A stretch of DNA of 64,000 nucleotides, taken from contig NC_088645.1 of the NCBI RefSeq assembly GCF_964019385.1, forward strand, positions 39,771,520-39,835,519, written 5' to 3'. Source of the stretch: Sycon ciliatum (lineage: Eukaryota; Porifera; Calcarea; Leucosolenida; Sycettidae). The notes beneath the pieces are model-generated. The model made no database searches. It had not been told where the DNA came from and saw only the letters and a list, made by a program, of their open reading frames with translations. A program made the position numbers and the translations under genes. Shown here piece by piece: positions 54,567-58,399 of the stretch. Each line of letters begins with the position of its first letter. Positions within the stretch are counted from its first letter, which is position 1.

Positions 54567-55248
54567 TTAATAATAATAGTACAGCACGCATATAGCTCAT
54601 ATGAAAAATCAAATGAGGGTCATGCATCTGTCGACAACGTCGAGCCAGTGCGTTCTGTCTGAGGCAAGTTGCTCCGCTTCCAAAAGAGACATATTGAGAA
54701 GTAAAAGGTCATTCCTAATGTTGTCTACCCATCTGGTCACTGGGCGACCTCTGGGCTTCTTTATATCTGTTATATTCATTGCCATGTGAAGGGCTTTGTA
54801 CGACACAGCGTCCTTCCCTTCACGAATGACATGTCCAAACCATAATAAGCGCCGGCGTCTACAGACTGCACTTATTGGGCATTGAGCAGTTTTAGCATAA
54901 AGAGCATTATTCGAAATTTTATTGGGAAAGATGATTCCAAGTATGTATCTGAGTTTACGGCGGTGCCATACATCAATTTTGCTTTCTAAGGCTTTTGTTA
55001 GAGTCCATAGCGCGCAGTTATATAGGAGAACTGGCAAAATGAGACAGTTGAACATGCTTAAGCGGGACTGCTGGGTATGGCGTTTCCATGATACACTGGA
55101 AAATGCCCGGTTCGCTGCTATGATACGTGCATCAATGTCCTCCGCTGACCCCAGACGAGAACCCAACAGTTTGACCGACCTCCAGGAGGCATCTGACTTT
55201 GTAGCTGTTACAAATTGTGTTTTGCTGATCTCTTTATTGCTATTATAA
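54567..55248 (-). pseudogene. RTE-type LINE ORF2 C-terminal fragment
   Basis: From 55235 the - strand reads KTQFVTATKSDASWRSVKLL then GSRLGSAEDIDARI, CLILPVLLYNCALWTLTKAL, RRRLLWFGHVIREGKDAVSY, RPVTRWVDNIRNDLLLLNMS and WLDVVDRCMTLI, ending at 54609. An (ATT)n-type tail lies at about 54567-54580. It is uninterrupted but 5'-truncated at about 55248. The 3' end recurs at 7328-7417. Bases 55250-55391 hold nothing recognised. Confidence 0.85.
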
Positions 55249-55391
55249 AATCGGTGTCTCCGCGTCGATTATGAGCAATTACAGCTATAACAATAGGAGA
55301 GTAAAGTTCATGATTCCTGTTACACCAGTCAAATGGAGTGGAAGACTGGCGAGCAACCCCGCTTTGCACCTCCTGCGTAGTCCAGTCGAAG

Positions 55392-55675
55392 TGTAGCGTT
55401 GGCACGCTGGTGATTTCAAAGCGTATAGCGTTTATTGTTTAGAGTATAGCCTATGCCCGTACTGTATCCCCGTACATTAGCGTACGGAGTCTGCCTTTGT
55501 ATCAAAGCTGCTGCTCACGATTCTTTTATAGCCAGTTAGTTAATTTAGTTGCCAACCAGTTAATTTCATGGCCAGTTATAGTTAATTTCGTTTCCAGTTA
55601 CATTTCAATTGCCAGTTACAGTGTGTTCACTGAGACCCTTGTATTTTTGCCTACGAGATATTGCGGCCCGCTACA
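55392..55675 (+). repeat. 5' LTR of ubiquitin-carrying element
   Basis: 284 bp, TGTAGCG..CGCTACA. Contains repeated CCAGTTA words (GCCAGTTAGTTAATTTAG, GCCAGTTATAGTTAATTTCG, TTCCAGTTACATTTC) in its second half. Confidence 0.9.
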
Positions 55676-55979
55676 AATTGGTGGCAGCGGTAAATTCATT
55701 TTGTTTTATTTTCTATACCTAACTGTGTTACTTTACACGTTTCTCGGACCCCCATGGCTCAACCCGCTACAGCTCCGTGCGGCGAATCAAGATGAGAATC
55801 CTGTTTCTTGCCTTCCTGGGCTTGGCCCTGCATATTATCCTGCAGCACAGTCAGGGTGCTAGCGTTGATCACCTTCTCTCCGCACGGCACACACTGGAGA
55901 CTCCGATGGCGATTCCAAGCGACCCACTACCTACATGTTTACTACCGGTGGTGATGGCGAAGCTGATGAGGACGACATG

Positions 55980-56235
55980 CAGGCTGCTGACCAACACAAG
56001 GAGGGTATTCCCCAAGACCAGCAGCGTTTGATTTTCGCCGGCACCCGGTTGGCAGACGGCCGAACCCTGAGTGACTACAACGTTCAGCAGGAGTCCACTA
56101 TTCACTTGGTACTTCGTCTCCGTGGTGGGATGCAGATTTTCGTCAACACTCTTCCTGGCTAGACCATCACTCTTTACGTCGCGCCAAGCCATGCTATCGA
56201 CAATGTGAAGACCACGATTCAAAACGAGGGGTGAT
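55980..56235 (+). pseudogene. Polyubiquitin fragment captured in LTR element
   Basis: The frame reads [40 protein letters not shown] and [15 protein letters not shown], then an in-frame TAG, then TITLYVAPSHAIDNVKTT. This is the C-terminal half of one ubiquitin joined head to tail to the start of a second, as in a polyubiquitin gene; the RLRGG end and M1 junction are kept. Linkage lysines are mostly replaced: K48 is Thr, K63 is Gln, K6 is Asn, the K11 codon is the stop. The upstream sequence (an ATG at 55935 followed by an acidic stretch) is not ubiquitin. A signal-peptide-like frame from 55777 overlaps the front part. Confidence 0.85.
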
Positions 56236-56974
56236 CTGTGTGACGCCGAGCTAGCCGCTTTGAGTGACCGGCTCAATCAAGATGAAGATAAAACCTGGCT
56301 CGCCCTCCGCCGTAGCTCCAGACGCCGCCGTGGTTACTAACGCTGATTCCAGGTATGGCATTTTCTTTCCTCTCTTCCTTCAGTCTCCCTGTTCTCTTCA
56401 GTCTTCCTTTATGCGAGTGTGTGAATCCAGTTTAGTTTGGTGGGCGTCTGATCATGGTGAGCCACGGCTTACCCAGCTAACGTGGGACAATGTGTTTGAC
56501 AACGCCCCTTATAGTTATAGTGTATTCAGTTCGGTTTTTGAACTGCGATGTTCCTGGCGGGTTGTGCCAGCGTTGTGCAGCAAGAGTGCTGTGGTTTTTC
56601 AGGTCCTATTTGGAGGACAGTTCTTTTCCCTTGTGACCCCGTGAGATCGTGTGAACCTGGTGTACTTCTACTTTTTGATTTTGTTTATCAGTTCCTTCTT
56701 CTGTCTATTCCAAAAGTTATCATTTCCGATATTTTGCCATACTCCGGTTGACGCTCTCCCAGTCATTCGCGATCTACTATAATGTTCACGACTCCATACC
56801 TATACTATATTATGCAAGTCATCCATTATGCATATCTCTTATCGTCGAGTTTATTCCGACGCGACCATGCATGCCGCCAGTTTTTTTCTAAGTAGCAGCC
56901 AGTTGTTGATGTCCAGCTATCACCTACATGTAGTATTCGAATCACGAGGACGTGATTGTGTTTAAGAGAGGAGG

Positions 56975-57258
56975 TGTAGCGTTGGCACGCTGGTGATTTC
57001 AAAGCGTATAGCGTTTAGTGTTTAGAGTATAGCATATGCCCGTACTGTATCCCCGTACATTAGCGTACGGAGTCTGCCTTTGTATCAAAGCTGCTGCTCA
57101 CGATTCTTTTATAGCCAGTTAGTTAATTTATTTGCCAGTCAGTTAATTTCATGGCCAGTTATAGTTAATTTCGTTTCCAGTTACATTTCAATTGCCAGTT
57201 ACAGTGTCTTCACTGAGACCCTTGTATTTTTGCCTCCGAGAGACTGCGGCCCGCTACA
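56975..57258 (+). repeat. 3' LTR of ubiquitin-carrying element
   Basis: 284 bp and the same length as the 5' LTR with about nine substitutions, roughly 3 percent, so the insertion is not brand new. Confidence 0.9.
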
Positions 57259-57269
57259 GAAGCAAGAGT

Positions 57270-57520
57270 TGACGTAAACAAAATTCACCTTGAGCTAGAG
57301 CAGATTTGGAGAGTAACGGTGAGGAAGGATGTCCTATCAACCCAACTCGCATCTATATTGGTATACCAATTTGAGTGCCGACAATGCAGTAGTCAGTACG
57401 TTGGTAGGACTCTTCAACATCTGAACACACGTATCACCCAGCACGTTCCACTGCACATGTCGACTGGCTCGGAACGGTCCCTGCTGCCCAAACGCGGCAG
57501 GCCACCTAGGAACCCTTAGC
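57270..57520 (+). pseudogene. GIY-YIG fragment of a second Penelope-like family
   Basis: The frame contains LVYQFECRQCSSQYVGRTLQ then HLNTRITQHVP, a GIY-YIG signature (VYQF..YVGRT..L..RI..H) with the upstream Cys pair typical of Penelope-like nucleases. It differs in sequence from the one at 28101-29366. The frame ends at 57519 with no recognisable continuation. Bases 57520-58070 show nothing I can name. Confidence 0.6.
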
Positions 57521-58399
57521 CACAGCAATCGTTAGTACAATTGCAGCCAACGGTCATAGTGCCTTCATTACCCGTATTGAAGCCTTGGAGACGGAGGATT
57601 CGCACGCTGTCAACTCAACTGAAGAGCGCCCACTAAAACAACATCCGGTTCAAGTCAAAACTTGACTCTGGGATGAGGGGATGCCCCGATCGATAGCGAG
57701 AGTGACGGCAACATCGACACATGGACGCGGGATGTAGAAATGATATCCACCCAGGCACTTTTATAGAACACCCTGCCATCCGACGTGCGTGGTATTACTC
57801 AGTTCCACCAGTTCAAACAAGCCTGCCTCCCGTTCTGTCTTGCTAGCAGTAGCACCAACTACTCAACACTACAGGAACCTTTGAACGTTTGCGGTACTCC
57901 ACAGAACCAGTCATGTGCTGTTTACCGCTTCCCCGGTGTTGTATTCTAACGGTAACGTTATTCATTGACTGAGCGTTCTTTGCTTTGCTTTGTACTTCAC
58001 TCGGTTATCATGTTACCGCACTTCCCCGGAAGTTAGTATGTACGAACTTCCGAACTTAGCAGCCACAGGAGTTTTTTTTGTTGTTGACAGGATCGTGAGT
58101 TGTTGTTGTTGTTGTTGTAGAAGTTTATTTAACGTCGCACCACAAACAGACGTATTCGCCTGCTTTGATACAATGTCATGTGGACGACAGAAGGAATGAG
58201 AGAGGGGGAGGGGACAGAAATACTGTCAAGTGTCCGTGCATATGATGTATGTACTGTACGGTGCCCGTACATGTAGGACGGGTACGAACTTACTATCTTT
58301 CGGGGAAACTTTCTTTCGGGGTGATAACCACGGCAGTGGAAAGTGTATTTTTATAGGGGGTACCAAGTCATTGGGGAGAACTTACTTACAGGGAAATAC

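Follow-up and report, generated by a model that had tools for sequence, protein, structure and literature searches.

A family of non-autonomous LTR elements in the sponge Sycon ciliatum carries a ubiquitin unit nested within a spliced segment of a second host gene

Positions 55392–57258 of the window, by which we mean the whole 64-kb stretch of S. ciliatum DNA that was analysed, were found to be a complete non-autonomous Ty3/Gypsy-type LTR element of 1867 bp (Table 1). With high probability it belongs to a large family of such elements with a nested cassette of spliced host-gene and ubiquitin sequence, built by template switching and mobilised in trans, the chimeric open reading frame (ORF) being a passenger. 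The two 284-bp LTRs claimed in a preliminary description of this DNA were confirmed: they show 9 mismatches over 284 bp (K2P 0.032), have TG...CA ends and are bordered by a GAAG duplication. The same description had the element capturing polyubiquitin sequence, which is supported by the presence of the same segment, with the same stop, in other copies; the refuting condition set there, that all other copies be free of ubiquitin, does not hold. Its account was right about the ubiquitin cargo but incomplete, as the unit sits inside sequence from another host gene, namely its spliced 5′UTR, signal peptide and acidic region. No tRNA genes were detected in the 64-kb window, and no Rfam families in its positions 55000–58000. 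Directly left of the element there is a 185-aa ORF (54609–55166, minus strand) that by eye is like the C-terminal part of non-LTR retrotransposon proteins and has no Pfam match.

Table 1. Features of the element and of its borders, in window positions
Feature	Position	Strand	Remarks
Target-site duplication, left copy GAAG	55388..55391	.	exact 4-bp repeat with 57259–57262
5′ LTR (LTR type A)	55392..55675	+	284 bp
Putative primer-binding site TGGTGGCAGCGG	55679..55690	+	from the sequence; identical in the autonomous relative L016
Remnant of the gag start ATGGCTCAACC	55754..55764	+	end point of L016 homology
Captured host 5′UTR	55765..55791	+	host exon 1 on C109 vs. copy L013: 87% over 93 nt
Part coding for the predicted signal peptide (host exon 1 and first bases of exon 2)	55792..55857	+	
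Acidic linker (host exons 2–3)	55858..55970	+	frameshifted in the window copy
One circularly permuted ubiquitin repeat (~residues 31–76, then 1–33)	55971..56228	+	
TAG at ubiquitin K11	56160..56162	+	terminates the 124-codon chimeric ORF of intact copies
Captured host gene, downstream continuation (LSDAEL..LNQ region), behind the stop	56229..56310	+	shown on copy L013
Remaining cargo common to LTR type A and type B carriers	56311..56755	+	
40-nt protease-region remnant of the autonomous relative	56839..56878	+	90% identity to L016
Polypurine tract AAGAGAGGAGG	56964..56974	+	from the sequence; adjoining stretch common with L016
3′ LTR	56975..57258	+	284 bp
Target-site duplication, right copy GAAG	57259..57262	.	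4-bp repeat

The window element does not encode gag-pol. L016 (C12:25281304–25286780), an autonomous relative whose termini match, has LTRs ~84% identical to those of the window element and a 4-bp duplication; besides reverse transcriptase (RVT_1), RNase H and integrase, it has a gag-like ORF bearing a zinc knuckle. The two elements are homologous in the LTR, in the leader and up to the gag start, where the homology stops; it returns in the protease-region piece and again just before the polypurine tract. This gap indicates that the cassette replaces most of gag-pol. Gag-Pol of L016-like relatives may copy the element in trans. In acute transforming retroviruses (gag-onc capture) host sequence replaces gag-pol just after the gag start, and the Sycon cassette begins at this point too; unlike them, the Sycon element is without a fused gag frame. 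Its gag-start frame (55754–55795) is 13 codons long, and the TGA that closes it shares bases with the start ATG of the captured ORF, so that reinitiation could be possible.

The ubiquitin-ubiquitin junction reported in the preliminary description was borne out both by tblastn in the 64-kb window (E=6e-35, 60/86 residues identical) and by a Pfam ubiquitin match (E=4.2e-16). Local ubiquitin alignments of the copies begin anywhere from residue 13 to 36, because the acidic linker aligns weakly to ubiquitin, and strong identity is seen only from residues 31–33. Past the junction, the second ubiquitin part ends at residues 33–41 (35 in many copies), and the unit is entered and left at identical ubiquitin codons. 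It is flanked by the DNA motifs CAAGACAAGGAGGG at entry and CAAGACGAGGAGGG at exit, which were picked only after the junctions had been seen; with A or G allowed at two more places, both are intact in 21 of the 43 aligned copies. Their spacing in these 21 is 228 nt in 10 copies, 191–207 nt in ten and 336 nt in one, the 10 copies at exactly 228 nt being those without a change in length. At the matching place the host exon carries the similar stretches CAAGACGAGGA and GAGGAGGG. A search of prokaryote contigs gave 7 matches, restricted to query residues 57–113, that is, the ubiquitin part; no relative was found in the viral contigs searched. An internal deletion in the ubiquitin half shifts the frame (GTQSEAGAHSS) in a subfamily to which L055, L057 and L066 belong, together with several ENA ORFs.

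The lysine states given earlier for the window copy also hold (K6 = N, K11 = TAG, K48 = T, K63 = Q), and they extend to the family. Among the 43 aligned loci, which include the likely duplicates L010–L012 and L014/L015, K48 is T in 41/41 readable copies, K63 is Q or H in 40/40, K6 is N, I or T in 41/41, and K11 is TAG in 41/42. The K11 stop was also present in 17/17 readable sequences of 20 further copies chosen by non-coding DNA. Being common to nearly all copies, the stop is older than the amplification of the family. By a hand count against canonical ubiquitin instead of the donor DNA, and to be taken as a remark only, 5/7 ubiquitin lysines are lost vs. 11/69 other residues (Fisher p=0.004).

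Around the ubiquitin unit lies a longer captured segment, the spliced 5′ part of a second host gene. When the first 66 residues of the chimeric ORF were used as a query, 49 ORFs on ENA contigs and one Sycon ciliatum protein, P0148, were returned. P0148 is without ubiquitin, and its acidic stretch is uninterrupted. It is annotated as transcription initiation factor TFIID subunit 7-like, partial, a name that looks spurious; a Pfam search with the protein gave no family matches. Compared with copy L013, P0148 reached a local score of 230 on the 5′ side of the ubiquitin unit (shuffle maximum 70 in 500 shuffles) and of 88 on the 3′ side (shuffle maximum 52), the latter match having 18/26 identical residues (E=6e-9, single comparison). 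For the stretch behind the stop a Death-domain reading had been considered; it was dropped, as P0148 matches that stretch.

A chromosome-level S. ciliatum assembly exists (PMC12419799), and our genome searches covered 538 Mb in 313 contigs. Contig C109 matches P0148 at 100% in three exon pieces. The host gene there has at least three exons with GT..AG splice sites and introns of ~2.5 kb and ~0.6 kb; exon 1 comprises the 5′UTR and the predicted signal peptide, which was assigned by eye, exon 2 is GASVDQPSLRSPRSG, and exon 3 holds the acidic region to NQEEDEAK; the contig stops short of the next host exon. Exon 3 at this locus contains no ubiquitin. In the window element, exons 1 and 2 are joined between 55855 and 55856, with the intron absent, and exons 2 and 3 between 55899 and 55900. 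Both introns are precisely missing and the 5′UTR is included in the outer segment together with the signal peptide and acidic region, which shows that the capture came from a spliced transcript. Judged from these alignments, the cassette appears to join segments of a ubiquitin gene and of a gene for a secreted acidic protein, both from the host.

The spacing of 228 nt between the junction motifs suggests template switching. Both captured pieces would have been acquired in reverse transcription, by switches between co-packaged RNAs. Those into and out of polyubiquitin mRNA may have taken place at CAAGACRAGGAGGG, in ubiquitin codons 31–35, which resembles the acidic host exon; two switches, separated by the length of one repeat but at identical codons of ubiquitin, would leave one circularly permuted unit in frame. 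We consider it unlikely that a chimeric gene with signal peptide, acidic region and ubiquitin arose in the host first and that its one spliced transcript was then captured in a single step. Such an origin would fit the insertion being in frame (228 nt = 76 codons), and since 150 of the at least 1388 first-look candidates found with P0148 in the genome were scored, a chimeric host paralogue may hide among the element copies. Yet the only host locus found is the one on C109, with no ubiquitin in exon 3, and the acidic stretch of P0148 is continuous; a protein search with P0148, which covered proteins of ~56–178 residues, gave 20 matches, namely P0148 itself and 19 element-type ENA ORFs.

Copies of this patchwork are present on many S. 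ciliatum chromosomes, and all copy counts given here are lower bounds. With the LTR as a query at least 42 genomic matches were obtained (40 of 443 candidates scored), corresponding to 34 distinct loci, that of the window element and 33 others, the latter taken with flanks of ~2–2.5 kb on each side. Fourteen of the 34 contain ubiquitin, L024 has distal cargo only and L016 is autonomous; the other 18 consist of lone LTRs or fragments of LTRs, some leader bases being kept in a few. Ubiquitin is therefore present in 14 of the 15 LTR-matched loci still holding cargo, L024 being the exception, and an additional cargo locus, L043, adjoins a copy on C2. Among the 150 scored candidates of the P0148 search, one was the host gene and 149 matched residues 1–80 or less, at 59–69%. 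All 28 loci chosen by the secreted-protein part (L054–L060 and 21 further down the list) contain ubiquitin, their alignments extending from the signal-peptide part across the whole ubiquitin interval. Non-coding cargo DNA found at least 694 first-look candidates, of which 40 were scored; every one of the 40 had ≥95% identity. In 20 of these the ORF region was read, and it reached into the ubiquitin part in every case, with nearly the whole ORF matched in 18 and parts of it in L101 and L102.

The same cargo was found on two LTR backbones. L055, L057, L059 and L060 carry cargo 89–95% identical to that of L013 beside a different LTR, type B, which is 342 bp long in L059 and has only patches in common with the window LTR; both type B LTRs were fully read in L059 and L060. 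The type B leader is unlike that of type A, and the joint between ATGGCTCAACC and the cargo is identical. Either the cargo has passed from one LTR family to another, or recombination has exchanged the element ends. That the cassette reached the second family by recombination of DNA copies (gene conversion), not in reverse transcription, is in our opinion quite unlikely. The identity of ~87–95% between the cargoes of carriers, next to strongly different LTRs and leaders, would agree with such an event. Against this, L059 has its own duplication (CCTT) and LTRs that are 98.8% identical, and hence retrotransposed after the swap; this concerns the time after the swap, and an earlier exchange at the DNA level is compatible with it. 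In L060 (positions 1791–1991) the type B primer-site leader is tandemly repeated, which might be the product of slips in reverse transcription.

The predicted product of intact copies consists of the signal peptide, the acidic linker, half a ubiquitin and a short tail. Its 124-codon ORF holds ubiquitin residues ~31–76 followed by 1–10 only, so the 76-residue fold is incomplete. The in-frame state considered in the preliminary description applies to 19 of the 43 copies, where this ORF is intact (the near-identical, likely duplicated L010–L012 are among them), but not to the window copy, in which a frameshift between the signal-peptide and ubiquitin frames precludes a chimeric product. AlphaFold, run on a shallow 18-row alignment, predicted no ubiquitin fold for the chimeric product (mean pLDDT 45.4). 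The lysine states had earlier been taken to mean that a product could not build normal ubiquitin chains; the states are correct, but for the product this argument is moot, because the ORF begins with a signal peptide, has ~residues 31–76 before the junction, ends at K11 and has no predicted fold. It is unlikely that the chimeric product works as ubiquitin. Judged from coding sequence, the ORF is most likely a tolerated passenger.

It is very unlikely that the chimeric ORF is a selected element gene whose product, a secreted half-ubiquitin protein, would aid the element or bind host factors. The 19 intact copies would favour such a role, as would further ORFs, 82–97% identical, in the protein database and the internal-branch values of a 34-copy test. 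In the latter (34 of 43 copies; L011, L012, L014, L025, L040, L056, L063, L066 and L070 dropped) the signal peptide had 13 synonymous vs. 3 non-synonymous changes (dN/dS 0.07) and the whole ORF 27 vs. 45 (dN/dS 0.50). As this sample was mostly chosen by protein similarity and hence biased, a further 20 copies were chosen by non-coding DNA. These, nine LTR-matched copies and L043 form a sample of 30, in which shared changes in the whole ORF were 9 synonymous vs. 41 non-synonymous, as expected by chance (p=0.85). In the ubiquitin half they were 3 vs. 17, and purifying selection on that half was not found in the 30 copies; for the signal peptide they were 5 vs. 5, a marginal synonymous excess (p=0.06), with which a coding function of this part would be compatible. 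Pooling of all 58 copies gave p=0.06 for the signal peptide and p=0.38 for the ORF. The missing ubiquitin fold and the frameshifted window copy also speak against a selected gene.

Smaller samples gave an ORF ratio of ~1.1 for 12 copies (L011, L012, L014 and L024 dropped) and, on internal branches of 17 copies (L011, L012, L014, L025 and L040 dropped), 0.69 over the ORF, 0.45 over signal peptide plus linker and 1.19 over ubiquitin plus tail. Between the host gene and the element, dN/dS for signal peptide plus linker was 0.35, a value that is unusable because the host branch is included. The signal-peptide constraint seen with 34 copies is not relied on, yet nothing else speaks as strongly for a coding role. 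We also regard as highly improbable that the element is an assembly line for secreted proteins, joining two spliced mRNA pieces in frame at a motif of the ubiquitin repeat, with the signal peptide selected in active lineages and the product made and secreted. If this were true, the loss of five of the seven ubiquitin lysines would be part of the function.

LTR elements are known to capture host genes, with the best examples in plants (PMC13317346), and the Sycon case is of this kind; it is set apart by the sponge host, the nested two-gene cassette with its one ubiquitin repeat, the identified intron-bearing outer donor and the two LTR backbones. No description of this element family was found in the literature searched, which was mostly outside subscription journals. 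The closest known system is maize Bs1, described as an LTR element with segments of three host genes and, like the Sycon element, a chimeric ORF (PMC13317346). In contrast to Bs1, the Sycon element is found in an animal, has two captured pieces, one of them nested, exists in many copies, and its cargo is on two LTR backbones. Short non-autonomous TRIM elements with foreign sequence are similar as well; the same source names an Arabidopsis P450-like fragment and the long form of wheat Veju, for which template switching was proposed (PMC13317346). Unlike in these, the donor of the outer capture in Sycon is identified, namely an intron-bearing gene of the host; at 1867 bp in the window copy, the element is also longer. 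Sycon Triactinin, Diactinin and Spiculin are described as Asx-rich, short, secreted acidic proteins with a signal peptide (PMC5390275); the captured P0148 gene is like them by description only, and no biomineral role is claimed for it.

The family is a well-preserved record of an animal LTR element assembling a gene-like unit out of host RNAs: the genome still contains the outer segment's donor, both intron losses are legible, and near-identical motifs, one repeat apart, flank the ubiquitin unit. The high copy number makes the steps datable, and the finding of the same cargo on two LTR backbones suggests that families have exchanged it. A transcript, if found, would make it possible to test directly whether domains are shuffled through RNA template switching in an early-branching animal.

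Independent insertion of a processed polyubiquitin pseudogene into the window LTR copy alone is scarcely conceivable and was rejected: intact copies do have the unit between 14-mers that differ at one base and resemble a target duplication, but these lie at the same ubiquitin codons and are accounted for by ubiquitin's own repeat period, no poly(A) tract is present at the unit end, and the same unit with its substitutions and K11 stop occurs at other genomic sites, several with 4-bp duplications of their own. Such duplications flank 12 of 17 lone LTRs and 6 of the 7 paired-LTR elements examined; the six include the autonomous L016, and L014 and L015 stem from one insertion that was duplicated. 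No target duplication was found at the ends of carrier L009. This copy, on C7, has a nested 3.5-kb insert (L009:1890–5445) with 561-nt terminal inverted repeats that match at 98%. On C226 (469938–474569, part of which is L062) four matches are spaced by exactly 1465 bases, which suggests tandem element copies sharing LTRs. L014 and L015, both on C9, share flanks and are thus probably one insertion within a segmental duplication; each later gained a different small insertion with inverted repeats.
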